A stretch of DNA of 32,833 nucleotides from the IMG/VR virus record IMGVR_UViG_3300019776_000987, positions 1 through 32,833 of that record; one strand, written 5' to 3'. Under the pieces are notes generated by a model. It saw only the letters and a program-made list of their open reading frames with translations, did not search any database and had not been told where the DNA came from. Below, piece after piece: positions 7,019 to 32,035 of this stretch (the first letter of the stretch is position 1; the number at the start of each line of letters is the position of its first letter). The stretch comes from a virus. The position numbers and the translations under genes are program-made.

Positions 7019-7528
7019 ATGGTAAATCTTTCTAAAGGAGCGAGCCTTTCTCTCGTAAAAGCTGACGGTTCATCTCTTTCTAAGGTTCGTGTTGGTCTCT
7101 CTTGGGATGTTACTCCTGGAGTTAATGCAGACCTTGATTTATTCATAGTTTCCCCATCGAAGCAAGTTGCATACTTCGGAGATAGGACTGCCATTGCAGG
7201 CATTCAACTCTCTGAAGATAATCGTACAGGTGCTGGTGAAGGTGATGATGAATACGCAAAATTCGACGCCACCGTAACTACAGACGGTGTCTACACCATC
7301 TGTGTAAACAGTTACACGGGTACTACATTCGACAAGGTTTCCAATGCTAAGGCTACTGTTTACAATGATGAAGATGGAACTATCCTTGCTACATTCGACA
7401 TTTCTCAGGGTGATACAAATACCGGTATTATTGTTGGTACTATTGCTGATTCTGGTAACTCATATGTATTTACGGCTAATGGTGACTTTGTGAATGGAGA
7501 TATCAATCAGATCGTTGCTTCTCTATAG
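7019..7528 (+). CDS. terD: TerD-family protein
   Basis: A 169-residue TerD domain protein: NLSKGASLSL at the start, VGLSWDV, the acidic DADLDL-type motif, DNRTGAGEGDDE, and a long beta-rich C-terminal half. TerD proteins bind calcium through these acidic loops and belong to tellurite/stress and phage-inhibition clusters; the role in a phage is unknown. None of its 18 glycines is TGA, unlike most neighbours, so it may be a recent transfer from a standard-code organism or a highly expressed gene. It shares a cassette with terC. Confidence 0.92.
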   Translation: MVNLSKGASLSLVKADGSSLSKVRVGLSWDVTPGVNADLDLFIVSPSKQVAYFGDRTAIAGIQLSEDNRTGAGEGDDEYAKFDATVTTDGVYTICVNSYTGTTFDKVSNAKATVYNDEDGTILATFDISQGDTNTGIIVGTIADSGNSYVFTANGDFVNGDINQIVASL

Positions 7529-7533
7529 TTTCC

Positions 7534-7555
7534 TTCTCCCCTCTCATGGGGAGGA
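7534..7555 (+). other. Hairpin TTCTCCCC/GGGGAGGA
   Basis: An 8-bp stem (one G-T) with a 6-nt loop, 5 nt after the terD stop. It has no T run. Its 3' arm also pairs with 7649-7654 as an extension of the tRNA-like acceptor stem, so two folds compete. Confidence 0.45.
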
Positions 7556-7556
7556 T

Positions 7557-7647
7557 GAGCGTGTGAAAGTAGAATAATTATGGAAAAATTATCAATGGCT
7601 AACGAGATGTTCCAACACTCTTATTGGTTCGAATCCAATCACGCTCT
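7557..7647 (+). tRNA. tRNA-Ser(GGA)-like element lacking a normal D arm
   Basis: Acceptor GAGCGTG (7557-7563) pairs perfectly with CACGCTC (7640-7646). The T arm ATTGG-TTCGAAT-CCAAT (7623-7639) contains the canonical GGTTCGAATCC box. An anticodon-like arm ATAATT/AATTAT (7574-7592) has loop ATGGAAA, giving GGA (Ser). A long variable region with a small hairpin (TGG..AAC/GTT CCA) suits a class II tRNA, and 91 nt suits Ser. Only about 9 nt lie between the acceptor and anticodon arms, so the D arm is missing or minimal, and no CCA is encoded. It could be a degenerate tRNA, an unusual one, or a tRNA mimic. Confidence 0.5.
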
Positions 7648-7691
7648 CATCCTCCTCTTGAGAAAATTTTCTATCTTTTTATGAAAACATT

Positions 7692-8372
7692 ATGAATTAT
7701 TCTGATACTATCATCATTATTAGTCTCGTGCTGATGGAATGAATCCTATCGATCGACAACGCCGCAGTACTCGCCACCATGGTGAAACACTTGAACCCAG
7801 TGGAACAAAAGAAAGCCCTCAAATATGGGATCCTCGGTGCATATATCTTCCGTGGAATCTTCCTCTTCACAGCGGCGTGGCTCATCAAATTTGCATTCCT
7901 CAAGCTCCTCGGTGGGCTCTACCTCATCTACCTTGCGGTCTCGCACTTCATGAATCACAGTGAAGAGTCCAGCAAAATACAGACGGTAGTTCGTGGTTTC
8001 TGGTCTACAGTTGCAATCGTCGAAGTGATGGATCTCGTATTTTCTATCGATAATGTCTTCGCTGCGGTGGCAATGTCACCAAAGATATGGGTCGTTATCA
8101 CTGGAGTATTCATCGGTATCCTCGCAATGCGATTCGTCGCAGGACAGTTCGTCGTTCTCATGCGGAAGTACCCAGAACTCGAGACATCTTCCTATATGGT
8201 AATCCTTATGCTCGGAGTAAAACTCTCACTCGGATTCCTCGCTGGATTCTTCCATCTCACAGGTCTCGAACACTTCCTCGAAGGACATATCGCATCTATC
8301 GTGACATCGTTTTTTACTCTCGGTGCATTCTCAGTTCCATTCATCAAAAAGTATATTTCTCGTAACGCTTAA
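7692..8372 (+). CDS. terC: TerC-family integral membrane protein
   Basis: A 226-residue, strongly hydrophobic protein with about seven membrane segments and the two TerC signatures: LMEGILSIDNAAVLATMVKHL near the start, with Gly17 encoded by TGA, and VMDLVFSIDNVFAAVAM near residue 115. Acidic residues in these segments are thought to bind a metal ion; family members are linked to manganese export and to tellurite resistance. The ATG at 7692 is chosen because it restores the first signature helix. With terD it forms a stress or membrane cassette unusual for a small phage. Confidence 0.92.
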
Positions 8373-12603: not shown

Positions 12604-14117
12604 AACCACAACCCGGATATCAAGAAAATGCACTCTCCTCCCCCGCTGATATCCTCATATCTGGTGCGGCTGCTGGAGTTGGTAAAACTTTTGCACTCCT
12701 ACTGGAGGCGACACGATACCTCCATATTCCAGGATTCTGAGTACGAGCCTTCCGACGGACTGCTCCACAAATAACCAACCAATGATGACTCTGGGATACT
12801 TCTCTTGAAATATTTCCCTCTCTCGGTGGTACTGCGGTCGAGTCCAAGCTTGAGTGGTATTTCCCTTCCAAGTCTCGTGTTAAATTTTCTCATCTTGAGT
12901 ATGAAAAAAACATATATGACCACCAAGGAGCACAATATGCCCTTGAACTCTTCGACGAACTCACACACTTCACAAAAAAGCAATTCCTCTATCTCCTCTC
13001 TCGTAACCGTTCTACCTGCGGTGTAAGACCATATGTAAGAGCAACTACAAACCCCGATCCTGATAGTTGGGTAGCAGATATGATCGATTGGTGGATAGAT
13101 CCTGTCACTGGTTTTCCTATCAAGGAGCGTGAGTGAAAAATACGGTATATGGTCGTCGATGGGAATCACTTCATTTTCGGTGATACTGCAGAAGAAGTAA
13201 TCGAAAAATGTCCCCATGTTTTCTCTATTATAGACCCTTCTTCTGGAATAAATCTCCAAGATATTATTAAGACGGTAACATTTATCTCAGGTTCTATCTA
13301 CGACAACAAAGAGCTCATCGGAAAGGATCCATCTTATCTGTGAAATCTCCTCTCGCAAACTCCTGAGGAACGAGCAAAACTTCTCGAATGAAACTGGAAG
13401 ATTAGGACCGACGGACTCTCACTTTTTCGCAACGAGTGTATCAATGATATTTTCTCAAACTTCATCTGAGAAGGTGGGGAACGGTATATCACTTGTGATG
13501 TTGCCCGTTTTGGTCGAGATCTCTGTGTGGCGATGGTATGGGAGTGATGGAGAGTGATTCGTATAGATATCCTTACGAAGTCTCGTACCACCGAGACGAC
13601 CGCAATGCTTGAATGACTCAGATCCCTCTACTATATACCAAAGAGTCTTACACTCGTGGATCAAGATGGAGTTGGTGGAGGTGTCATTGACGAGTCTTCA
13701 GACGAAGATGGTGGAGGATATGTTGGATTCTCTGGTGGATGATCGGTGATGACGGATCCAGTATCAGGAATCAAAGAAGCCTACTCCAATCTCAAAACTC
13801 AGTGTGCCTATCGTATGGCGGACCGTGTGAATTCCTGAAAAATTAGTATCGATGAATCTCAGATATATGTGGATTGATATAATACCGATGAAGTCATCAT
13901 CGAGTGAAAGCCATATCAGGTCCGCAAGCTCATCATAGACGATCTCCGTTCGTTTAAAAAGAAAAATGCTGATTCCGACGGTAAAAAACAAATGATACCG
14001 AAACAAGAACAAAAAAACATATTGAAGCGTTCCCCTGATTTCGGGGACGCTTTTATTATGAGGGAATGGTTCGAGTTCATAGAACGACCTCAGAATGACG
14101 AAATAACTATTATCTAA
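12567..14117 (+). CDS. terL: Terminase large subunit
   Basis: A 516-residue packaging motor. Walker A GAAAGVGKT is at 33-41; Walker B ends LELFDE with Asp130 and Glu131; a coupling segment ATTNPDP follows. The nuclease domain has TCDVARFGRD, with metal-ligand Asp311, a second acidic site in VDQDGVGGG, and a final acidic ligand around SPDFGDAFIM. About a dozen glycines are TGA. It cuts concatemeric DNA and pumps it through the portal. The start overlaps terS. Confidence 0.95.
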
Positions 14118-14129
14118 TACAATCATTCT

Positions 14130-14669
14130 ATGCCACAAACACCTCTTATAACGATAAAACTCAGGGAATATATGGCGAAGCATCACCCATATGGTATGAA
14201 GATGATTTGTGATCGTACTGGAATTGGCCATGTTGCCATCGACAATATTATACACGAGAAAAAGTCAAAGTATAAACTATCAACCCTCAATGCTCTTTAT
14301 GAATATTTCAAGATAGAACGAGATGATTGGTATCGTTCCAATATGAAAAAGTGGCATCAAAGACCAGATAGTATCCTCGGAAGTTATTTTCGTGAAAAAC
14401 GAATTGCCCTGAGTTTATCTATCCATGAAGTGGCAAGATCCCTAAGAAATATCGATGAACGAACGATATATAGAATCGAAAGTGGTGACTCATTTCCTGA
14501 TTATAGCTCGTATACTATTATTAAACTTATAGAATACTACAAAATCCCAGAAGATGAGAAACATACGATCATGTGGCATCTCCGGTGCGGTCATGATATG
14601 ATGGGGATATACAAGAAACTGATCGATGACATAGGAAAACTTGGAGGTGATGCTAGTATTTATGTATAA
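14130..14669 (+). CDS. Double-HTH (XRE/Cro-CI-like) regulator, candidate late activator
   Basis: A 179-residue protein with two HTH-like units: residues about 8-60 (MKMICDRTGIGHVAIDNII, then a KSKYKLSTLNAL turn) and about 85-135 (SYFREKRIALSLSIHEVA, then IDERTIYRIESGDSFP). The second is a good Cro/CI fold match. None of its roughly ten glycines is TGA. It sits between terminase and portal, just upstream of the region where all late boxes occur, and one box lies inside its own 3' end (14625-14639, encoding DDIGK). It is thus a natural candidate to read the late box; this is inference. A repressor role is the alternative. Confidence 0.75.
   Translation: MPQTPLITIKLREYMAKHHPYGMKMICDRTGIGHVAIDNIIHEKKSKYKLSTLNALYEYFKIERDDWYRSNMKKWHQRPDSILGSYFREKRIALSLSIHEVARSLRNIDERTIYRIESGDSFPDYSSYTIIKLIEYYKIPEDEKHTIMWHLRCGHDMMGIYKKLIDDIGKLGGDASIYV
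14625..14659 (+). promoter_or_regulatory. Late promoter 1 (portal operon)
   Basis: GATGACATAGGAAAA at 14625-14639 inside the 3' end of the HTH gene, 14 nt, then TAGTAT (14654-14659). The box ends 40 nt before the portal ATG, giving a leader of about 14 nt. Confidence 0.7.
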
Positions 14670-15951: not shown

Positions 15952-17352
15952 ATGAATACCATAACTCAAGCAATCACCGACCTCAAGTGTCTCCAGATGG
16001 CGAAAGCACAAGAGGAGATCCGAGGGAAAGAATTCACGAAAGTCTATACGGCTTTCGTGAATCTTTTTGCGTGACTTTTCGTGGATCAGACACAATTCTT
16101 TCTTGACTATATATCATCTCACGAACATATTTTCACTCCAGATGGGTGACTTATTATCGAGAAGTCTGATGATTTTTGAGATATGTTTCCGGGTGATGGA
16201 TTTATTAGAGAACTTGAGTCTTTTTTTATAAAGGCTCACATGATAGGACAAGATAAGACGAACAATGAGGTTATGTGACAGGCAGATATATCCCTCGAAG
16301 TGAAAAACCTATGAGCGTCGATTTATGCAAAGAATAGGGCGTGAGAACTTATGAAGCAAGTGAATGATACGACCAAGGAGGAGGTTCGTGCACTTTTTTC
16401 GAAAGCATGGGAGGAGAGTTGGTCAGTCAGTACTATATCGAGTGCTATCGAGGAGAAGTTTACTCAGTTCTCGAAGTATCGAGCTTCACTCATAGCTACT
16501 ATGGAAGTCGCAAATGCCTACGAGGTAGGAAAAAAAGATCAGTTCGCACTCTATCAGAACTACTATCACTTTGATGGATTCAAGCGGTCACAGACTCAGC
16601 ACGATAGTGGAGTCCGATATACACACTCGATCAATGAGATTGAGGGGTGGATACCAGAGAAACAACTTTTTTCTGGAACAAGTACCGATCATGCACCACA
16701 CGGATTCAATTGTCGATGTGTGACACTTCGAAGTCTTCTCCCTCCTGAAGTAGATGATGTCGTGTGAGTTCAGTTCAAGAAAGATTCATCAGCATACTTG
16801 GATCGTTCACAAAAATTGGAGATATCGAATGCGGTCCAAAATTTTCGTAAATCGGCTCCATATCTCCCAAAAATCGGTACCCTATCAGACTTTGGTGATG
16901 CTGCAAAATGAAATATTGCAGTATACTATGGGAAAAAAGATACTCTCGCAGTAAATTATATCTGATACGAAAATGATGGAATACAGGAATGATATGCAAT
17001 AGCTGGATCATTCTCTGGAATCGCTCACAAAAATGCTATCATATATCACGAACTTGGTCACTATCTAGACACTTATATCGAGAAGCAATCTATTGACTGA
17101 TGAACTTTTCGGGATATGTTATGGGTAGATATTCACGATAGTATGATCAAGGCCAAGATATCGCTTATGTCGAAGTGGCAGAGTGGTGATATACCATCTA
17201 TGAAATACCCTCTCGATACCGTATCATCCAAGGGATACGAGGTCGCACTAAGAGAATTATTTGCAGAAAGTGTCTCTGGGTATATAATGGGGAAAATAGA
17301 TATCCTCGATGATGGGATGAAGCAGTTTTTAGACTTTATATTCATGAAATAA
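15952..17352 (+). CDS. MuF-type head protein fused to HExxH metallopeptidase domain
   Basis: A 466-residue protein. Residues about 130-265 form the Mu gpF/SPP1 gp7-like head morphogenesis domain (MEVANAYEVGKKDQF, DGFKRSQTQHDSGVRYTH, DHAPHGFNCRC). A C-terminal extension of about 190 residues has HELGH at 366-370 and a downstream ELFAE (435-439), the pattern of a zincin with a distal Glu ligand. MuF proteins enter the virion and can carry toxin or enzyme domains, so the peptidase may be injected into the host; a role in head maturation is the alternative. Many Gly are TGA. Confidence 0.82.
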
Positions 17353-17357
17353 TATTT

Positions 17358-17498
17358 ATGCTTTTCAAAAATATTGACGATCTCAAAAACGCAACATTCG
17401 AGCCGATCGAAGTGCATCAAGTAGATTCAAATGGGAAACCGATCTATCGTGGAGAGGGGTTGGGAATAGACTATTCGAAAGTGAAACCAATCGAATAG
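17358..17498 (+). CDS. Small hypothetical virion-region protein
   Basis: A 46-residue protein, MLFKNIDDLKNATFEPIEVH at the start, charged and soluble. It follows the MuF gene by 5 nt; its TAG stop shares a base with late box 2. No family is recognised. The position suggests a small head accessory. Confidence 0.55.
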   Translation: MLFKNIDDLKNATFEPIEVHQVDSNGKPIYRGEGLGIDYSKVKPIE

Positions 17499-17533
17499 AT
17501 GACATAGGAAAATGCACTATCTCTCGTTATGAT
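17498..17533 (+). promoter_or_regulatory. Late promoter 2 (protease)
   Basis: GATGACATAGGAAAA (17498-17512), 15 nt, then TATGAT (17528-17533). The -10 lies wholly in the loop of the terminator hairpin 17520-17541. Confidence 0.75.
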
Positions 17534-17547
17534 GCGAGGGATTTTTT
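17520..17547 (+). terminator. Terminator interleaved with late promoter 2
   Basis: TCTCTCG (17520-17526) pairs with CGAGGGA (17535-17541), loop TTATGATG, then six T. It ends the portal-MuF unit. Confidence 0.8.
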
Positions 17548-17550
17548 AAT

Positions 17551-18006
17551 GTGCCAAAAATGCAACATAATTTCCATACAGAACGCATCATAAAAACGGA
17601 AACCTCGAATCAGACGGCAACATTCGTCATTCTCGAACCAGGTATCGTCGATCTCAATGGTCAGGAGATATCCGAGGAGGAGATTATCAAGACGGCTCAT
17701 GAGTTCGTCATCAATTTACAGGATAAGTATGTAAATATAGATCATGTAAAAAATACAACTCAGGACGATGTGATATTCGTCGAATCGTATGTCTCCCCTG
17801 TCGAGTTTTCTATTTCTACTGCTACTATCAAAAAGTGAACATGGCTCGTGGCATTCAAATTCCTCTCAGCGGATAAGTGGCATATGCTTCTCGATGGAGA
17901 TATCACTGGAGTATCGATGGAGTGACTCGGATATGTCGAGAAGACTACTGATCAGATAGCAAAACTCGAAAGTATCCAAAACCATTTTATTTCCCTTTAT
18001 GCATAA
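17551..18006 (+). CDS. XkdF-like prohead serine protease (Peptidase_S78_2 type)
   Basis: A 151-residue protein. ILEPGIVDLNGQEISEEEI, the His in NIDHVKN, then FVESYVSPVEF, KKGTWLVAFK, and GDITGVSMEG match the XkdF/Peptidase_S78_2 pattern, with His and Ser (GVSMEG) as likely catalytic residues. Gly at KKGTW and MEGLG are TGA. It would cleave scaffold and capsid termini during maturation. The start is GTG 17551 or ATG 17560; GTG gives a 10-nt leader from the predicted transcript start. Followed 4 nt later by the 71-residue gene. Confidence 0.82.
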
Positions 18007-18010
18007 TTTT

Positions 18011-18226
18011 ATGTCAAAAATCACCGATGTCATCGTCAAAGGAATATCACTCGTAATGAAGTGAAACACTCCAGCAGTACCACACGCACAAACGAAGTTC
18101 GCCATATTCAAAAGTGATACATCGTATACTTCAAAATTTGATGAGATAGAAAAAAAATTTAACAGACTCTCTATCCATCAAGATACAGGTACGGTATGTG
18201 GTCCTTGTGGAGTCGATGAGAAATAA
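18011..18226 (+). CDS. Small XkdF-C-terminal-like protein
   Basis: A 71-residue protein: SKITDVIVKGISLVMKGNTP, AQTKFAIFKS, and a CGPCG ending. The ISLV...FAIFKS pattern resembles the second part of XkdF-type proteases (V-S-L-V-x-K/R-x-A, F-A-I-x-K), here as a separate gene. It probably works with the protease during head maturation. The CGPC pair could bind a metal or form a disulfide. Confidence 0.55.
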
Positions 18227-18238
18227 CGATAGAGAGTC

Positions 18239-18273
18239 GATGACATAGGAAAATAATCTAAACACGGGAAAAT
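18239..18273 (+). promoter_or_regulatory. Late promoter 3 (scaffold-capsid)
   Basis: GATGACATAGGAAAA (18239-18253), 14 nt, then GAAAAT (18268-18273), the weakest -10 of the set but with A2 and T6 kept. It overlaps the loop of the 18262-18281 hairpin. Confidence 0.65.
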
Positions 18274-18290
18274 ACCCGTGTTTATTATTT
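18262..18290 (+). terminator. Terminator interleaved with late promoter 3
   Basis: ACACGGG (18262-18268) pairs with CCCGTGT (18275-18281), loop AAAATA, followed by a T-rich run. Confidence 0.75.
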
Positions 18291-18304
18291 CACTTTTTAC
18301 TGGT

Positions 18305-18748
18305 ATGAAAGAACACCTACAAAAAATTGCTCTTGCTTTCGCAGAAATCACTAAGGCGGCTAAGAATGGTGACAATGCTACTCTCATTGCAAAGCTTGAA
18401 GAGGTTGCAGATGCTATAGATACAGCAACCACTGAGGCTGATAGTACCATGAAAGAATCGGTAACTCAAGCAGAAGAGGTTACCAAGATGAAAGAACGGA
18501 TCGAAAAGTGGGCTGATATGTATGTTTCATCAGAGACATTCTCTGATCTTTTGGAACAATTTAAGTCGGCTATGGACATGATAAATGGTCTTACCCCTGT
18601 CATAAAGACGGTAGAAGATCTCACCAATCGTCTGGAAATAGTCGAAAAAGGTGCGAAACCATCAGCACAGGATGATGGTGAATCCAATCCACAAACAATA
18701 AAAAAGGGTGCATCCGCTCTCTCGAGTGCTGCAAGTCGATTCGCATAA
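18305..18748 (+). CDS. Scaffold-like coiled-coil protein
   Basis: A 147-residue, Ala/Glu/Lys-rich helical protein with likely coiled coil (about 5-65 and 85-115) and a Ser/Gly-rich C terminus. Placed directly between protease and capsid, it fits a scaffold. The ATG at 18305 is preferred: the upstream GTG at 18278 lies in the terminator hairpin and before the predicted transcript start. No TGA codon is used. Confidence 0.65.
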   Translation: MKEHLQKIALAFAEITKAAKNGDNATLIAKLEEVADAIDTATTEADSTMKESVTQAEEVTKMKERIEKWADMYVSSETFSDLLEQFKSAMDMINGLTPVIKTVEDLTNRLEIVEKGAKPSAQDDGESNPQTIKKGASALSSAASRFA

Positions 18749-18790
18749 ATACTTCTTATATATCTTTACTTTATTATTTTTTCTACCATT

Positions 18791-19732
18791 ATGCCAACCC
18801 CAAAAGAACAACTCCATAAAGCATTCGGGTCGTCTGGTGACACCTCCAGTGCTGTACATCTCTCCGTAGAAGAAGCATCTGCATTCTTCGATACGGTCGT
18901 TGATCAATCAGTACTTCTCAAAAAAGTTCGTACAGAAAAGGTTGATCGTGCCACTAAAAATCTCCAGAGACTCGTATCGACTGGAGAATTCCTCCGAGCA
19001 GGTGGAAATCATGTTGCATTCGATGATGCCGATGCTGATACGGTAGACACTCAAGTTATACCTATTTCCACAAAAGAAGTACAAGGATCTATCTTTGTAT
19101 ACGATAGTGAAAAACGACATAATATAGAAGGCGTTTCTATCGGGGAACATGTTCTATCGATCGCTGCAAAAAAAGTCGCAAACTCTCTCGAAAAACTTTG
19201 TCTTACTGCAGATACTGCAAATTCATCATTCGTAGGAACTCTTTCTGCATACAAGCAGGTTGACTGATGGCTCAAGCGTATCAAGTCGACAGGTCACTAT
19301 CTTGATGCAACAAACACTACACTTTTCTCGGATGCATCTGTAACTCGTGAAAAATTCCTCAAGCTCTATACCTCTCTCGAAACTCAATACCGAGATAATG
19401 CCCAGTTCTTCCTCCACGATAATGCCATCGTCGAATACGATGAACTCTTCACGGCAAACTTCAATCGTAATAACCTTGTTGATAATATCCTCAACCGTCC
19501 GCTCGTGAAAGTTCCTCTCATGGGAATTACTGCCGGAAAGAGTCAAGTTATCCTCACTGATCCTCAAAACTTGATCATCGCATTCCAAGTGGAAACAGCA
19601 GCGGTACAGTTTGAAAAATTCCGCAATCCAAAGATGAAACGAGATGAATACTACTTCACTATGGAGCTCGATACTCAGGTCGAAGTCCCAGAAGCAGCAG
19701 CACTCCTCGACAAACTCACGATGAAATACTAG
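18791..19732 (+). CDS. Major capsid protein
   Basis: A 313-residue protein with the makeup of HK97-fold capsids: helical N-arm (SVEEASAFFDTVVDQSVLL), FLRAGGNH, a spine region with VANSLEKLCLTAD, and the C-terminal LVKVPLMG ... VQFEKFRNPKMKRDEYYF. Position after protease and scaffold supports this. Only one of about a dozen Gly is TGA (VDGWL), in keeping with strong expression. Sequence family not fixed. Confidence 0.82.
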
Positions 19733-19735
19733 TTC

Positions 19736-19770
19736 GATGACATAGGAAAATAAACACGAAAGTCTACTAT
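19736..19770 (+). promoter_or_regulatory. Late promoter 4 (connector operon)
   Basis: GATGACATAGGAAAA (19736-19750), 14 nt, TACTAT (19765-19770). The -10 lies inside the loop of the hairpin 19754-19781. Confidence 0.8.
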
Positions 19771-19786
19771 GACTCTCGTGTTTTTA
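19754..19786 (+). terminator. Terminator interleaved with late promoter 4
   Basis: ACACGAAAGT (19754-19763) pairs with ACTCTCGTGT (19772-19781) with one mismatch, loop CTACTATG, then a T run. It ends the capsid unit. Confidence 0.82.
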
Positions 19787-19804
19787 TATTCTAATTTTTT
19801 TTCT

Positions 19805-20029
19805 ATGAAACTCATAAACACTCGTGATCGATCCTACAACGGAATAAGAAAGGGAGAAACCATCGATATTAAAAATGAAGATCAGATTGTAGAATACCTC
19901 GATGCTTGATTCGAGAAAGTTGGAAAGGAGGAGATGAAAGCAATTTCCAAAGATGCTGATAAAAAATGAGGTGATGAAAAAAATACCCCAGTAGAGGATA
20001 ATAAAACAGGAAGTACTGAAGTAAAATAA
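19805..20029 (+). CDS. Small head accessory protein
   Basis: A 74-residue protein: an N-terminal part of about 45 residues (INTRDRSYNGIRKGETIDI, EYLDAGFEKV) that resembles the short mature-domain proteins often found after capsid genes, then a charged, disordered tail. Two Gly are TGA. Possible head fibre or head-tail protein; no firm family. Confidence 0.55.
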
Positions 20030-20037
20030 TAAAACTT

Positions 20038-20607
20038 ATGCTTTATACTGATATCGAAACACTCAAAACACATCTCGGAATAGAATGTTCATACGATGAT
20101 GAAAATCTCAAAGCACTCATCGAAACAGCAACGGAACTCATCGATACTGATCTTTGAGAAAATATATGAATTCGGACAAAGACTCGTCGTATTGATGGTA
20201 CTGGAAATATCCGAATTATCATGGAAAATCGTGTTAATACGGTTATCTCTGTAAAAGATACTCGTACGGGATATGCCTATACGGTAGATTTTATTGATTG
20301 ATATATGATCTATCTCACGACCGAGCTCGAACGAGGTATGAAGAATATAGAAGTATCCTATACAATGGGATACAATACTGTTCCAAAGGACTTTGAACGA
20401 TATTTTCTAGAGTACTGCAAAGAACTCTATCAAAGAGATAAGATCAAAAATGATACGGATGTCGTGAAAACGAAAAAGCTCGGGGATTTATCCGTTACAT
20501 TCTTTTCTCCGAGCGAGCTTGTGAAGTATGGATCATCCGTTCTCGATTCTCCAGATATGGAGAAAATTATGAATAAGTACAAAAATTTTTCTATCTATAC
20601 CGCATAA
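20038..20607 (+). CDS. Head-tail connector (gp6-like)
   Basis: A 189-residue protein starting MLYTDIETLKTHLGIE, with a helical pattern (ALIETATELIDTDLG) and a beta middle (YTVDFIDGYMIYL, VSYTMGYNTVP). This is the layout of gp6/gp15-like head-completion proteins that bind below the portal. Several Gly are TGA. It overlaps the next gene by 1 nt (TAATG). Confidence 0.75.
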
Positions 20608-20957
20608 TGTCTTTTCTCTCTACATATTTCTCATCTGATATGCGACCTCTCTCCGTCACCAAACAAGCAAAAACAAAAAATGATATCGGTGAGATGGTGG
20701 ATACAGACTCTACTATCGTCAGGTTTATGGGATTACTTCTCAGAGTCGGACAAATTGGGTCTTGATTTATGATAGAAAAAAACATACCGATAGAGGATGC
20801 CACTCATACACTTAGGTGCGAACTCGGTATATCTATCAACCGTGATGATATCATCAACGATCGTGGTGTGAGGTATATCGTGAAACACTGAGCAATCCAG
20901 GATGACTTCTGAGGTGAATATGATCATCAGCTTATTTATCTGAAACACTATGAGTAA
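20607..20957 (+). CDS. Head-closure / head-tail joining protein
   Basis: A 116-residue protein with beta-rich sequence (IVRFMGLLLRVGQIGSG, VRYIVKHGAIQDD), suited to the stopper or head-closure role. It overlaps both neighbours by a few bases. The call rests on size and position between the connector and the gp10-like gene. Confidence 0.6.
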
Positions 20958-21420
20958 TACCGGAATCAGCATCAATGAAAGAGCTTTTGATGAGGCGATT
21001 AATGCTGGACTTGCTCAGGTGTGACTCATGCTACAAAACGAAATCGTAAAAATAACCCCAAGAGATATCAATCGTATTGACATGAATAAGCCGATTGATA
21101 GGAAAGATGGGAAACGGCCAAAACGAAGATCTCACTATAAACCGAAACAAATATTCGGGCATTGGTATGAATGAGTGAGTGGTAACCTCAAGCGATCAGT
21201 ATCATTTGAGGTAGATGAATCAAGAAAGCGTGTAGAGGTTGGAACTCTTGCAGATGGTCCAGCTCAAAACTATTGAAAGTATTTGGAATATGGAACGGCA
21301 AGGATGCAAGCAAGACCTTTTCTCAGACCAACTATAGCGGATAAAAAAGTACAAGCAATGCTTGTCAGTGAGTTTGAGCGTACATTTTATGCAGTCCTCG
21401 AACGATACAATCGCTCATAG
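20950..21420 (+). CDS. HK97 gp10-like tail completion protein
   Basis: A 156-residue protein. The C-terminal YLEYGTARMQARPFLRPT is the signature of HK97-gp10-like tail-completion proteins. The N-terminal half has basic stretches (DRKDGKRPKRRSH). Several Gly are TGA. It overlaps the upstream gene by 8 nt. It should join head and tail at the neck. Confidence 0.85.
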
Positions 21421-21456
21421 TCAATACACTGTAACAATATAATCAATCACCTGATA

Positions 21457-21855
21457 ATGATAGATCTCAAAAAAGCCATCTACGGTATCCTCCATAATTC
21501 TCCCGGTATTACTACCATAGTGGGAGATGAGATCCATACATGGGCAGATGGGAAAGATATTCGAGAAGATTTTACTGATAAATTCCCACAGGTAACCTAT
21601 CAGCGTATCGGAAGTATGAATATTCAAAGGATCGGTGTGCGATCTGAGAGGTACCAGGTATCATCATGGGATCTTACGCAGAAATGAGCTGATGTCCTAT
21701 CAAATGAAGTCATCAAAGAACTGAATCGATCCGGTCCAGTGAAATCCTATAAGTCGTGTAACCTCATCCATATCGGTGAAAGTTATGATCCTGAGACAAA
21801 GTCTTTTGGGGTACATACTGATTTCGAGATCGTGGTATATGATCCAGAATACTAG
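21457..21855 (+). CDS. Tail terminator-like protein
   Basis: A 132-residue protein (LKKAIYGILHNSPGITTIVG, FPQVTYQRIGS, FEIVVYDPEY), with the makeup of tail-terminator or DUF3168-like proteins that cap the tail tube. Position just before the tail tube gene supports this. One Gly is TGA (QKGADV). Confidence 0.68.
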
Positions 21856-21861
21856 GGACTC

Positions 21862-21896
21862 GATGACATAGGAAAATGACAAGACTCTCATAGAGT
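21862..21896 (+). promoter_or_regulatory. Late promoter 5 (tail tube)
   Basis: GATGACATAGGAAAA (21862-21876), 14 nt, TAGAGT (21891-21896). The -10 overlaps a small hairpin ACTCT/AGAGT (21884-21896). Confidence 0.75.
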
Positions 21897-21921
21897 GATA
21901 ATGATTATTTCATCACTTTTT
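21895..21921 (+). terminator. Terminator after late promoter 5
   Basis: GTGAT (21895-21899) pairs with ATCAC (21912-21916), then TTTTT. Weaker than the other late terminators and partly downstream of the -10. Confidence 0.5.
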
Positions 21922-21925
21922 ATTT

Positions 21926-22696
21926 ATGCAAACTTCCGTACAAAATAACCGATCAATTCGCCTAGGGTCTGCAATCATGATGGTAAATTGAGTGAATATT
22001 GGAGCCCTTGAAAATACGAAACTCAAGGTTGAAATTTCGGTGATCTCACTCGTTGCCGATAATGCGAAACTTGAGCCTCGTAAAAAAATCACCAAGGCTA
22101 GTATCACGGCTGATATGTGGGAAATCAATCTCGATACCCTTGCGACAATCGATGGAGTCGGGACACTCTCATCAGTAGCATCCACTCCTATCAGTCCGAC
22201 AGCTGAGGTAGTACTTGCGAGTGGATCATGGGCATCAAATACTCCTCTTTTCTTCGCTGGTCGTCAATCCAATTGAGGAGTTGCTACGGCTATCAGCGTC
22301 AAGAATGGTTCCACTACCCTCACTCTCGGTACTGATTATGCAATCATCAATGAGAACGGAAAAACTGGTATCGTGAGAATTGGTACATCACTTGCAACGA
22401 GTGGAATTGGTATCAATGTTGCCTATACCTACACTCCAGCAGCTTCTAAATCATACACTGGTAAAGATATCATAAAGCTCATTGGTATGTACCCAGTTGA
22501 AGTCTATAATACCGATGAGAATGGAAAAAAATTTGGTATATCATTCCCTCTTGCATATAATTCAGCAGGTATTGAGTGGAGCTTCTCTCCAGACGAGAAA
22601 CTCGATCAAGTTATGAAACAACCACTTGAGTTCACAGCATTTCCCGACTCTACCAATACATTCTTCGTTATGTATGATGAACAAGCGTACCAGTAG
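21926..22696 (+). CDS. Major tail tube protein
   Basis: A 256-residue, beta-rich protein with Ser/Thr/Gly-rich strands (SIRLGSAIMMVNG, ASITADMWEINLDT, ISVKNGSTTLTLG, GISFPLAYNSAGIEWSFS). Place, size and its own late promoter fit the tail tube. Few of its many Gly are TGA (two), as for the capsid. No direct family signature was seen. Confidence 0.75.
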
Positions 22697-22731
22697 GATG
22701 ACATAGGAAAAACCAAAATCCCCCTTATAGT
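22697..22731 (+). promoter_or_regulatory. Late promoter 6 (tail assembly)
   Basis: GATGACATAGGAAAA (22697-22711), 14 nt, TATAGT (22726-22731). The -10 exactly fills the loop of the 22715-22743 terminator. Confidence 0.85.
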
Positions 22732-22744
22732 GAGAGGGATTTTT
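22715..22744 (+). terminator. Terminator interleaved with late promoter 6
   Basis: AAAATCCCCCT (22715-22725) pairs with AGAGGGATTTT (22733-22743) with one mismatch, loop TATAGTG. Typical A-stem-T terminator of the tail tube gene. Confidence 0.88.
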
Positions 22745-22754
22745 CTTTTCTAAT

Positions 22755-23216
22755 ATGCGTATTATCCGTGAATTCATCTATGACTCATGACTCAAAACTC
22801 TCAAGTATTGAGATATGTCGTGGGAGCAATACACTCGATATTTTTATCAACCGGACGAAGTGATCAAAGAGATACTTACAGAATTTCAGGAAACTCCTGA
22901 TCTTTCAAATGATGATATGTCGTTTTTTATCGTTACTTGTTTTACAGAGATTACTGGAGTAGCTTCACTACATAAGAAGCGAGATGGCAATCATATGGTT
23001 CCAGAACATCATATCCCTATGGGATACCTTATGTTTCATCTCCATCAGCAGTACTCAGAAATTATGAGTATGCCTGCACGATTGGTGTTTTTACTATTGA
23101 ATGATATCGCCATATTCTCAGGACAAGAGGAGTATGATCCTGATCGTCGGCTGAAGAGTATTGATCGTGATGCTATAAAAAAGGTTTTTGGGAAAACGAG
23201 CGGAAGTGTGAAGTAG
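22755..23216 (+). CDS. Tail assembly chaperone-like protein
   Basis: A 153-residue protein between tail tube and tape measure, where tail assembly chaperones normally sit. It is helical and soluble (DEVIKEILTEFQ, RLVFLLLNDIAIF). Two Gly near the start are TGA. No frameshift-extended second product is evident: an accessory cassette on the other strand follows. The call rests on position and size. Confidence 0.55.
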
Positions 23217-23228
23217 TAATACAATAAT

Positions 23229-23252
23229 AAACCACTCGAATATGAGGGGTTT
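23229..23252. terminator. Bidirectional terminator
   Basis: AAACCACTC (23229-23237) pairs with GAGGGGTTT (23244-23252) with one mismatch. It lies between two convergent genes and has A and T runs for both directions. Confidence 0.7.
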
Positions 23253-23257
23253 AGAGT

Positions 23258-23461
23258 TTAATCACAGCCACTATACTCCTTATTTCATCCACTACTATAG
23301 TGATATCTTCATCATTTTGAACCAGTATAGCAAGTATATCATGAACTTCTTGTATAGTTTCCAGATTCGTATGTTGATTGTCTATTTTGTGGTAAAGATG
23401 CAATATAGTCATCAGTTTCCTTTTTTTGCTTCTTTGCAATTCTTTCCCGTTCTTCTTGCAT
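23258..23461 (-). CDS. C-terminal fragment of secreted protein (after in-frame TAA)
   Basis: A 67-residue frame, if begun at ATG 23459-23461: MQEERERIAKKQKKETDDY, a linker, then SSGYTCYTGSKGGRYHYSSG ending in YSGCD. The Cys-Tyr/Gly-rich end (CYTG.KGGRYHY..SGNKxY..C) resembles small modules often found at the C terminus of secreted or phage proteins. It is in exactly the same frame as the gene just upstream, separated by TAA (23480-23482) plus a short Glu-rich stretch. Probably one gene broken by a nonsense change (CAA to TAA would explain it), or two linked genes. Confidence 0.55.
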
Positions 23462-23479
23462 TCTCTTTCATTCTTCTTC

Positions 23480-23815
23480 TTACTGTTTTTGTATTTCAAA
23501 ATTTTCTTTAGCGATTTTAGAATTTTTTTCAATTATTGAACCAAAATCTATTCATACAATTTTTGGATATACTTGTGTTCATGAATCAGTGGATCAAGTT
23601 TGATCGTAAACTACACCAGTTTGGGTAGATCCAGTATATATTTTTTGTTTGATATCATTGTTTATCTCTTTTTTAAATTTTGGAATAATTCTCTTTACTT
23701 TTTGTATAGAACCTGTTCTTGTGTTTACATCTGTGTTTTTTACACTTTCAGCTCAAGATACCGATAGTGATAATGAAAAAATGGAAAACAAAAAAATGGA
23801 AAATATTTTTTTCAT
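23480..23815 (-). CDS. Secreted protein, N-terminal part (interrupted)
   Basis: A 111-residue product with an N-terminal signal peptide (MKKIFSIFLFSIFSLSLSVS then GA as likely cleavage site), followed by a polar Thr/Lys/Gln-rich domain with four further TGA glycines. The end (KIAKENFEIQKQ) runs into an in-frame Glu/Arg/Lys-rich coil after the TAA, so the natural protein was probably about 185 residues. No family is recognised. Second gene of a minus-strand accessory cassette inside the tail module; likely a lysogeny-expressed surface or exclusion protein (inference). Confidence 0.6.
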
Positions 23816-23831
23816 AGTTGGTTTTTTTAAA

Positions 23832-24491
23832 TTAGTATTTTACTCATTCAACATTGAATACCATAGCATGATTTCATTCGTTATAAAATGAGGCTTCTAT
23901 AACTAACTTTTTTGCTTTTTTTATTTTTTCAATAAATGCGGTTTCTCACTTAATGAAAATTGTATCACTCGAATAATCTGAAGGCTCGTTAAATCAAATA
24001 GTTTCCACTTTTCATTCGTCGAATCGAACCTTAATTGAACTATTATAAGATCAAACAAACTGTCACTTCGAAACTGTTAGCATAACATCATTATCATTTG
24101 GTCAATTATGTCTAAGTATCAGTGTTGCATCCTGTCATCCAGCATATGGAAAGTCAAAATATAATTTTTCGTTTGCTACTATTCTTGCTGTATATATAGA
24201 CTTACCAGATAGTTTATCTTCACGAGTACTATATTCCCATGTATTTGGAACATCCTTTGGTATAACAATATTTCCAGTTTGACTTGTGTTTGTGCTAACC
24301 TGTCATCATCATGCCATTACTCATATAAGTGCGGTAAATAATATAAACAATCATCCCCACTTTACGAGAGGTGACATTTTATTTTCCTCCTTTAACATAT
24401 TCTTTGCCTCATCAGTTGATAGTTCCACCTGACAATGTTTACATCTGATAGATCAATCTATAATTTCTTCCTTACAATACGGACATTTCAT
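23832..24491 (-). CDS. Zinc-ribbon membrane protein of accessory cassette
   Basis: A 219-residue protein. The N terminus CPYCKEEIIDGSIRCKHC is a four-Cys zinc ribbon; one hydrophobic segment follows at about residues 48-65, ending in a Gly-rich stretch encoded by consecutive TGA codons; the rest (about 70-219) is beta-rich and probably outside the membrane. About a dozen Gly are TGA. It starts 22 nt after a probable transcript start from TATAAT at 24520-24525. Host-like zinc-ribbon/TM proteins of this layout are common in bacteria, so this looks like a moron gene. Function unknown. Confidence 0.72.
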
Positions 24492-24519
24492 ATTTTATAC
24501 TATAAAAAATAATATCCGC

Positions 24520-24546
24520 ATTATACAGAATCTACAAATAAATCAA
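24520..24546 (-). promoter_or_regulatory. Minus-strand promoter of accessory cassette
   Basis: On the minus strand: TTGATT (24546-24541), a 15-nt spacer, then consensus TATAAT (24525-24520), 28 nt before the zinc-ribbon ATG. It is back to back with late promoter 7 (starts 24548), 1 nt apart. Confidence 0.6.
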
Positions 24547-24547
24547 G

Positions 24548-24582
24548 GATGACATAGGAAAAAATATATTTCTTCCCATATT
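24548..24582 (+). promoter_or_regulatory. Late promoter 7 (tape measure operon)
   Basis: GATGACATAGGAAAA (24548-24562), 14 nt, CATATT (24577-24582); TATTAT at 24579 is an alternative. The -10 lies in the 5' arm of a long hairpin that covers the start codon. Confidence 0.7.
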
Positions 24583-24614
24583 ATGATAGTTTTACTAATA
24601 ACTTTCATAATATG
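24577..24614 (+). promoter_or_regulatory. Start-codon-covering hairpin
   Basis: Fifteen paired positions with one mismatch: the segment 24577-24591 pairs with 24600-24614. The tape measure ATG (24612-24614) is the end of the 3' arm. A transcript started at late promoter 7 lacks the 5' arm; a read-through transcript would have it and hide the start. Confidence 0.55.
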
Positions 24615-28813: not shown

Positions 28814-29902
28814 ATGCAATCAATTATATACATCTATACACGCACTGGAACAAATCCGATTATGCAGATATTTGATGGAATGAATCTTTCACTCTCATCA
28901 AAGACCAATGAGATATCAACAGCCTCTTTTGATATCCCACTCTATAGACCTGATGGATCCATACATCCATCACTTAAGGATATTACTTACCTTGCAAAGA
29001 TGAATAGAGTGAAAATAGCTATGAATATCTCAGGGGTCGAGTCCGTACAGTTCGATGGATATATTTCATCGGTTTCTGATGGTCCAACATCGACCAAAGT
29101 CATACTCTCAGATTATCTCGGAATACTTGAATCAAGAATCATCACAACAGATGTAACTTTTTCTAATGTATCGGTGAGTTCTATTCTCACGAGTATATTT
29201 TCTACAATGAACTCGATCGACCCAACAGGACTTTCTATAAGTTCCAGTATCACGGATATGGTGACGAAGACATACACTGCAGGTCAAAGTATTATGGAAA
29301 TAATACAAGATCTTGCACAGGGTGGATATCACTATATAATGCGATGAATCGTATTATCTATGGATACCATCGTCGGAATCGATAGGAGTACTGGAGCTTC
29401 TTATATAGAATTTCGCTATGACTATCGTGAAGCTCGAAGTCGCAATATATCAGACTTCACTATGGACTCAAATGTAAGAAATATCCAAAATTCTATTAGT
29501 GCTAAGCCAAGTACTGGAACTCTCGTGAATGCATCAGACACAACGAGCATATCGACTTATGGGAGACGAGAGGAAATGATCAGTGCCAATGGTACCATAT
29601 CAGATGAAGTTTCAAAATATCTTGTAGAACACAAGGATGATACTGTAGAGATATCGATCACTCCAACGACATATGACTACTCTCTTGCGAATGCTGGAGA
29701 TATCGTTAAAGTTATGATCGATAGAGGAGATGCTCGTGGGAAGTATTCAGGTACGATGCGTATCGTATCAAAGGAATACACGACACAAGGGGATCTCCCA
29801 TCAGTAGTATTCTCACTTTCATCATCGAAGATACGAACACCTAATATATTGGAAAAACTAAAACGGATGAACGATGATATAAAAAGCCTAAAGACTCTCT
29901 AG
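28814..29902 (+). CDS. Tail hub / Tal-like protein
   Basis: A 362-residue protein after Dit, beta-rich with a Thr/Ser-rich middle (ISSVSDGPTSTKVILSDYLG, DLAQGGYHYIMRG) and a C-terminal helix. Position and size fit a tail hub (gp27/gp44-like) that closes the tube. Only one Gly is TGA (MRGIVL). Its stop lies in the loop of the following terminator. Confidence 0.68.
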
Positions 29903-29916
29903 TGGGTCTTTTTTTT
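29890..29916 (+). terminator. Rho-independent terminator of tape measure operon
   Basis: AAAGACTC (29890-29897) pairs with GGGTCTTT (29904-29911) around TCTAGT, which holds the stop codon TAG; then a T run. Unlike the other late sites it ends 1 nt before the next late box. Confidence 0.85.
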
Positions 29917-29917
29917 C

Positions 29918-29952
29918 GATGACATAGGAAAATGCTGTTATAGGGAGATATT
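29918..29952 (+). promoter_or_regulatory. Late promoter 8 (fibre-holin operon)
   Basis: GATGACATAGGAAAA (29918-29932), 14 nt, GATATT (29947-29952). No hairpin covers the -10. The leader to the fibre ATG is about 16 nt. Confidence 0.7.
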
Positions 29953-29974
29953 TACAGAATAAGAATTACTCTCT

Positions 29975-32035
29975 ATGGCACAAATTACCGCCCTCATTGC
30001 TGGTCCAAATAAAAACTTTGATTATCAGGTCACAGCACTTGCTCGTTCCATCTTGAATCAATGAGTCATATCATGAACAGATCTGATTGTTTCAACAAAT
30101 AGTGTTGGCGTTGGAGAGGCTTTTATTCTCTGTACTCGAACGGGATGACAACAAGTGATGGTCCACTATACCAATTCTGCGAGTCTGGCCATAGATACCA
30201 CTGGAACCAAATATGTGTGGGTAGGGATCGATCAATCCGTGATAGACGATGGAAGTGCAAATGCGATAGACGGAACAGGGATTGCGACGATACGGACAGG
30301 ATCATCCTACCCGACGACGGGTGCATATATCCCCCTTGCCTCCATCACTGGAGGAGTCATCACCGACACTCGTGTGTTCGTCACACAAAAAGCCATCACA
30401 AGAAATGGATTCGCAACTGGAAAAACCGTCTATGTAGATCCAAACACTGGAAACGAGGTGGTGAAAAATAGTACCACAAGCTCGACGATATCTGGATCAG
30501 ATACGATGCTGATGCGAGATCAAAATGGAGATGAAAAACGGGTAGCATACAGCGACTTCGGAAGTCTCGTGACGAGTAGTGGGAAGTATGTACAGACCGC
30601 TACTATGGGTGAAACGGTAGCGAGTACCTTTGTGTCACAGACGACTACACTTCCAGTGTTTACATTGATTCATGGATGAACTACACCGTTTTTAGTATAC
30701 AGCGGATCCGCAAAAAAATTCACCTCATTTTCTATATATGCGAATTATAATTCTAATGCTACTATTTTCGTAAAGGGAAGCAACGATGGAGGAACGACAA
30801 AAACAACACTCTATACAGGATCCGTCAACATAACTACCAATTCACAAACAATATCTCTCAGCGGAAGTAGTACCGCATATTCATCTATCTACTTCGAATC
30901 GAGCATACCGAATATCAGTGCATACATTGATTATATCACCCTCATAGAAGACACTTCCTATACCTATACTGGATCCGTACCCGTATCCGTGGTATCCGAA
31001 ATCCTCTACACAAACACTCTTACCACGAGTGCTGGAGCGAATCAGACACGAATCGGGAATCGGTACAATTTCCCATACGAAGTCAAACTCAAAAAATTCA
31101 AAACTTGGCAAACGACCGTGTCAACGAGTGCGAGTATCCTTATTCTCGACAATCTCGGAAATACACTCAAAACCGTTCCAATGGCAACTGTCGGTATGCA
31201 AGAAGTCGATCTTGATTTCCTCTGTACCGCCAATACCGAATACCGTGTAGTACTCAATGATACGGCGAATTGGACGAGTGGGGCAAGCTACCAGTACAAC
31301 ACCATTTCCAACTACCAAACGAGTATGCCGTATGTCCTCGGTGCGGTGTACGGTGCATGAGCTGGAACGCTCGACAATGCGAATGGATACATATTCATAG
31401 AGTCCACCGTGGATTTCCAGTGACGAGCGTACAAGTCACGAGCCAATCGAGTATCCGAACCACAATTTGCGGTATTCGCAGGATTTGTGACTTCTCCAAA
31501 AAATATAGGAGATATCGTGAAGCTCGATGCGAATGAAGGTGGATACAACGATGGTCTCCAATGACTTACGAAATGATCGTTTTACTACCTTTCAGATATT
31601 GGCGGTATCATAAGCTCAACACCTGGAACTATCATTTCCCCAATTGGGATATCGTATAGTACAACAGCGTTAAAAATTACACGAAGTAAAACTCTTGGAA
31701 TAACAAAAACAGTATCAATGTCCACCACGATTGATGTCCCTAATGGAACTAAAACGACAACATTTTATTCTTCAATTTTTCTATTTTCGAAATTTATATC
31801 AGTAAGTGCCATCAATAAATGATGATGGGCAAACGCTTTCGATGGCGGAGTATGATATATTTATGTCCAATTAAGCATTGATTGAATTAATTTTTATGAT
31901 TATAACAGTCTTGAATTATGAAACTATGTCATTCCAGATGTTATGGTATGAAGGATTAAATTTGTAATAATTTCAACAAATTATCAACCACTAACCAATA
32001 GAACCTACTCACCATCCGTAACTCTTAATTTTTAG
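29975..32035 (+). CDS. Large tail fibre / receptor-binding-like protein
   Basis: A 686-residue Thr/Ser/Gly-rich, beta-rich protein. The N-terminal 130 residues look like a tail attachment domain (VTALARSILNQGVISGTDLI), with the repeated pattern GAYIPLASITGGVITDTRVF as in phage tip fibres. Beta-sandwich-like segments follow, and the last 150 residues are Gly/Asn-rich with many TGA codons. It follows the hub and starts the last operon, so it is the likely host-binding protein. Confidence 0.75.

Follow-up and report, generated by a model that had tools for sequence, protein, structure and literature searches.

Predicted terminator hairpins overlie several putative late promoters in a phage with UGA-glycine coding

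The virus record IMGVR_UViG_3300019776_000987 of IMG/VR, a single complete record of 32,833 bases referred to here in its entirety as the window, carries eight copies of a short sequence box ahead of its virion operons. We consider it quite probable that these eight boxes mark late promoters, that at sites 2, 3, 4 and 6, and weakly at site 5, the same segment also encodes the terminator of the operon upstream, and that at sites 7 and 8 a hairpin instead hides the start codon in RNA arriving from upstream. The boxes, their spacing, the hairpins and the difference in computed folding are features of the sequence, from which we infer promoter activity, termination, an activator and the insulation of operons as the purpose of the arrangement.

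The box is a 15-mer, GATGACATAGGAAAA, present in exactly eight identical copies in the window and on the + strand only; matches with up to three mismatches number 14, against a mean of 2.4 in shuffled sequences. Each copy is followed, 39–55 nucleotides (nt) on, by a plausible virion-operon start codon. Boxes 2–6 lie at or shortly past the stop codon of a + strand gene, and box 8 lies past a + strand gene and the terminator of that gene. Box 7 is preceded by reverse-strand genes and is therefore not merely the 3′ end of a + strand gene. A hexamer of the form xAnnnT (A at position 2, T at position 6) begins 15 bases past the box end at seven of the eight sites, leaving a 14-nt gap, and at site 2 it lies one base further (16 bases past the box end, 15-nt gap). 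Since none of 20,000 sets of eight random window positions reached seven hexamers at one spacing (spacings up to 39), the boxes qualify as promoter candidates with a −10-like hexamer at a fixed distance. The −35 consensus TTGACA is matched at no more than three of six positions at any site (spacers of 16–18), so the box probably stands in for a −35 element, as an activator site would. The two hallmarks of an activator-dependent sigma-70 promoter, a constant distance from box to −10 and a missing consensus −35, are both found at these predicted promoters.

At sites 2, 3, 4 and 6, the hexamer coincides with a stable hairpin that has at least three G-C pairs and is followed directly past the stem by a T-run (scores of 3.98, 3.18, 3.96 and 4.5, respectively), as in an intrinsic terminator. 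The original prediction, made from the same DNA, placed the −10 hexamer wholly in the loop at sites 2, 4 and 6 and across loop or arm at sites 3 and 5, and the hairpins recovered here bear this out: the loops at sites 2 and 4 are exactly TATGAT and TACTAT, TATAGT falls inside a 7-nt inverted-repeat loop at site 6, five of the six bases lie in the loop at site 3, and the 5′ arm of a weak hairpin holds the hexamer at site 5. In the lowest-energy RNA fold of site 6, an inner helix of 4 base pairs (bp) closes over part of TATAGT. At sites 2, 3, 4 and 6, predicted terminator and promoter signals are superposed in ~50 nt, as had been proposed; at site 5 the superposition is weak. The stem sequences vary among sites. 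In 1000 trials with the hexamers fixed and the remaining sequence shuffled with dinucleotides preserved, a hairpin covering the hexamer at −6.5 kcal/mol or lower was found at no site in 947 trials, at one site in 52 and at two sites in a single trial; the observed number is four. The hairpins start 18–36 nt past the upstream stop codon, as calculated from the coordinates. It had also been claimed that RNA starting at the −10 would not contain the 5′ arm, and this agrees with the folding: RNA begun ~7 nt past the hexamer lacks that arm, and its terminator stretch folds to 0.0 kcal/mol. At sites 2, 3, 4 and 6, then, a predicted promoter core is contained in a predicted terminator between co-directional operons, an arrangement of the tufB-secE type.

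Sites 1, 7 and 8 keep both the box and the −10 with no terminator over the promoter, and the hairpin is therefore not part of the promoter itself. It appears instead to be tied to ending the upstream operon, being present where a co-directional operon stops immediately ahead of the box. Three of the hairpins (18262–18281, 19754–19781 and 22718–22740) score as terminators on the − strand too, because the AAAA of the box supplies the − strand T-run. A further copy of the layout had been suggested at 2070–2096, in the early region; a hairpin is found there (2068–2094, with TATAC in the loop), but the promoter part did not hold, with no box match and no −35 seen by eye.

A second kind of hairpin occurs at sites 7 and 8. 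The original prediction counted site 7 with the terminator hairpins; the hexamer does lie in the 5′ arm, but the structure has no T-run and is not a terminator, and it hides the start codon in read-through RNA. By computed folding, the probability that the start region of site 7 is unpaired is 0.08 in read-through RNA versus 0.85 in promoter-born RNA, and a value as low was obtained in none of 300 shuffles. Site 8, absent from the original list, also hides its start codon, more weakly: the corresponding values are 0.17 and 0.73, with seven of 300 shuffles as low. The remaining six sites are ordinary in this test. Because eight sites were tested, site 7 alone is firm. By computed folding only, site 7 shows start-codon sequestration of the kind known from T4 gene e, and site 8 shows it more weakly. 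The coordinates of all these features are collected in Table 1.

Table 1. Late boxes, −10-like hexamers, hairpins and the candidate activator gene in the window.
Feature	Position	Strand	Remarks
Late box 1	14625–14639	+	Inside 3′ end of helix-turn-helix gene; portal start codon 14680; no terminator hairpin
Late box 2	17498–17512	+	First G of box is last base of upstream TAG stop codon
Late box 3	18239–18253	+	
Late box 4	19736–19750	+	3 nt past stop codon of major capsid gene
Late box 5	21862–21876	+	
Late box 6	22697–22711	+	Immediately past stop codon of major tail protein gene
Late box 7	24548–24562	+	After reverse-strand genes, ahead of tape-measure gene
Late box 8	29918–29932	+	Ahead of gene for 686 residues
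−10 hexamer 1	14654–14659	+	TAGTAT
−10 hexamer 2	17528–17533	+	TATGAT
−10 hexamer 3	18268–18273	+	GAAAAT
−10 hexamer 4	19765–19770	+	TACTAT
−10 hexamer 5	21891–21896	+	TAGAGT
−10 hexamer 6	22726–22731	+	TATAGT
−10 hexamer 7	24577–24582	+	CATATT
−10 hexamer 8	29947–29952	+	GATATT
Predicted terminator hairpin 2	17519–17542	+	−11.5 kcal/mol; loop exactly the −10; tail TTTTTAATG
Predicted terminator hairpin 3	18259–18284	+	−13.8 kcal/mol; loop AAAATA overlaps the −10; weaker T-run (TTATTT)
Predicted terminator hairpin 4	19752–19783	+	−14.1 kcal/mol; loop exactly the −10
Weak terminator-like hairpin 5	21892–21919	+	−5.1 to −6.1 kcal/mol; −10 in 5′ arm; tail TTATTTATG
Predicted terminator hairpin 6	22715–22743	+	−10.5 kcal/mol; −10 in loop; tail TCTTTTC
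Hairpin 7	24577–24614	+	A+T-rich; 5′ arm has the −10; 3′ arm has start codon ATG 24612; no T-run
Hairpin 8	29936–29980 (approximate)	+	−10 mostly in long loop; start codon 29975 in 3′ arm; no T-run
Separate predicted terminator directly upstream of box 8	29892–29909	+	−6.5 kcal/mol; T-run score 4.79
Gene for helix-turn-helix protein, 179 residues	14130–14669	+	Second possible helix-turn-helix region upstream; directly ahead of first late operon

In the mechanism we propose, the box would occupy the −35 position and most likely serve as the binding site of an activator made by the phage or of an RNA polymerase that the phage has modified, and the −10 would resemble the element read by the main sigma factor of the host. 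A polymerase arriving from upstream would transcribe both hairpin arms and the U-run and halt once it had gone a few bases beyond the next start site. For a polymerase recruited to the box and −10, transcription would start within the 3′ arm and would not be stopped, since a transcript that begins inside this arm is unable to form the hairpin. Termination in an Escherichia coli system is maximal when the stop codon is more than 27 nt away and rises gradually below that distance (PMC4824070); the hairpins of the window lie in or near this ribosome-free range, so the box may double as a spacer. At sites 7 and 8, the inverted repeat would pair the start codon with sequence present only in read-through RNA, and we therefore propose that only promoter-born RNA is translated well. 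The natural candidate for the activator is the helix-turn-helix protein listed in Table 1, chosen for the position of its gene; a structure model computed from its single sequence, with no alignment, was uninformative (predicted local distance difference test score of 34). Among the window proteins tested, no phage sigma factor was recognised and no RNA polymerase family was matched.

The same layout could be read in other ways. Box, hairpin and U-run might form a single RNA element at the 3′ end of each transcript, either a terminator carrying a tag for protein binding or a site for antitermination resembling nut or put, with the match to a −10 being incidental. At five sites, the box does come between a stop codon and a hairpin with a U-run, and an invariant box is also possible for an RNA-protein site. 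This explanation nevertheless seems improbable, given that box 1 (within a gene), box 7 (after reverse-strand genes) and box 8 (after a separate terminator) keep the −10 spacing with no terminator behind them. A role of the inverted repeats in DNA is less probable still. Promoters of the phage N4 virion RNA polymerase work through extruded DNA hairpins, and a −10 held in the loop, as at four sites, would suit such an extrusion aiding promoter opening. N4-type promoters would be expected to carry the hairpin at every site; here, half of the eight promoters with the same box have none over the −10 (1, 5, 7 and 8), U-runs come after the hairpins, and the polymerase family is missing among the proteins tested, as mentioned above. 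We regard this explanation as very unlikely. The lack of an overlying terminator at sites 1, 7 and 8 argues against both the DNA-hairpin promoter and the single 3′-end RNA element.

A closer competitor is pure packing, in which both signals are real, the −10 sits in the loop for want of room, and the overlap itself is unselected. This is a weaker form of the reading we favour, and we give it appreciable weight, somewhat short of an even chance. Within a hairpin, only the loop is unpaired and can carry any sequence, the fixed box limits the left side and the start codon the right, and hairpins of 24–32 nt have few placements in segments of 38–54 nt between box and start codon. Given the hairpins, a hand count yields a probability of ~6 in 10,000 for all four falling on the hexamer, which is not vanishing once the ordering constraints are added. 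Packing leaves unexplained the start-codon hairpins of sites 7 and 8, which also use the promoter to separate two kinds of RNA. A more elaborate possibility concerns the overlap as a hand-off device, in which a polymerase finishing one virion operon would stay on the DNA and restart at the next late promoter, so that one operon feeds the next. In single-molecule work, E. coli polymerase was shown to stay on the DNA once intrinsic termination had taken place and to be able to restart at promoters close by (PMC6978380); for the window, we hold this idea to be a long shot.

Several observations weigh against the reading of superposed late promoters and terminators. At site 3, the T-run is interrupted and GAAAAT makes a poor −10; the hairpin at site 5 is weak. 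The start-codon result of site 8 stands at only ~2% by shuffling, and sites 7 and 8 were two chosen from eight. The coincidence of −10 and loop may reflect packing alone, which leaves the claim that the two signals overlap unaffected, and the link of the activator to the helix-turn-helix protein is a positional guess. Conservation of box and hairpin, finally, is unsupported by relatives, as the searches turned up no relative carrying the box. The major capsid and the portal, used as queries, returned no relatives from the viral collection. Terminase relatives numbered 36 (40–47% identity) and tape-measure relatives 20 (up to 50%); among those checked, neither in-frame TGA in the matches nor a repeated box was present. 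In 24 whole terminase-relative records, the box with up to two mismatches gave scattered, chance-like matches on both strands, and scans of viral and genome contigs gave a single chance-like match per stretch. The negatives of one further motif scan of the relatives are weak, since its coding mask made it miss the window's own boxes. The 380 genomes from the phylum of a Moraniibacteriota genome gave no sign of genetic code 25. Two terminase-relative contigs, L037 and L038, carry a repeat of their own, TATATATTTACAGTGT (overlapping 12-mers), three times upstream of terminase (L037:5356–7064).

Family searches of the proteins of the window identified a portal, a Mu F-like head protein, an S78-like protease, a head-tail connector and a tape measure, with the major capsid protein gene at 18791–19732, and an integrase is encoded at the left end. 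Several late genes open to full length only when TGA is read as glycine (code 25). Code 25 is used by many phages of Absconditabacteria and Gracilibacteria (PMC10746230), and we assign the host, an uncultured bacterium, to one of these groups as a presumption; the words ‘promoter’ and ‘terminator’ are absent from the text of that survey. An Rfam scan of the window matched tRNA only. Reverse-strand genes (23251–24491) separate late box 7 from the tail-assembly gene, which ends at 23216; they look like an inserted, moron-like block, with a terminator-like hairpin (23228–23253) on its convergent side. Two strong terminator-like hairpins fall elsewhere, one within the Mu F-like coding sequence (16033–16061, −15.5 kcal/mol) and one close to the terminase gene's 3′ end (14026–14051, −14.6 kcal/mol). 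A leftward terminator-like hairpin at 1998–2015 (T-run score 5.75) has no recognised leftward gene to its right and may end an unannotated small RNA. At 7019–8372, a presumed TerD-like gene, unmatched in the NCBIfam search, stands beside a gene for a YkoY/TerC-family membrane protein (TIGR03716, 221 bits), both carried on the phage.

Middle promoters of phage T4 are activator-dependent and have a −10 but no −35, with a conserved box near −30 at a fixed distance from a sigma-70-like −10. The predicted promoters of the window share the box near −30 and its fixed distance to the −10; box sequence and length differ, and the activator is here a candidate only. Overlap of terminator and promoter between operons has been described for Salmonella tufB-secE and other concatenated ribosomal operons (PMC7055797), where, as proposed for the window, the signals for ending one operon and starting the next overlap and hold the two operons adjacent. 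Unlike that chromosomal operon pair, the arrangement is repeated here within a single phage, at four or five of its eight late promoters, and the −10 lies in the hairpin loop or overlaps it. Leaders of the T4 genes e, soc, 49 and I-TevI tie up the start region in an inhibitory RNA helix, and gene e has late promoters within the DNA for the 5′ strand of this helix, so that RNA begun there is free of the structure (PMC3014915). The gene e logic matches site 7, and more weakly site 8, by computed folding. T4 late promoters themselves use a phage sigma factor and the box TATAAATA, whereas the window has a 15-bp box and a sigma-70-like −10, plus predicted terminators at other sites. The phiEco32-like phage 7-11 has bipartite late promoters read by a phage sigma factor, GTAAtg-16-aCTA (PMC8948821); bipartite promoters ahead of late genes are common to both phages, although such a factor was not recognised among the proteins tested here. 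A limited search of the open-licence literature turned up no account of late phage promoters whose −10 sits in a terminator loop. Each component idea has a precedent, and its repetition across the late operons of one phage appears to be new.

The arrangement predicts four RNA ends, near 17549, 18291, 19790 and 22750, and eight starts, the latter near 14666, 17540, 18280, 19777, 21903, 22738, 24589 and 29959. If it is as proposed, a single 50-bp cassette would end one late operon and start the next in the phage of a UGA-glycine bacterium, and start-codon hairpins would cover two further junctions. The sites of the window would then form a natural series for asking whether the overlap of terminator and promoter couples adjacent operons.

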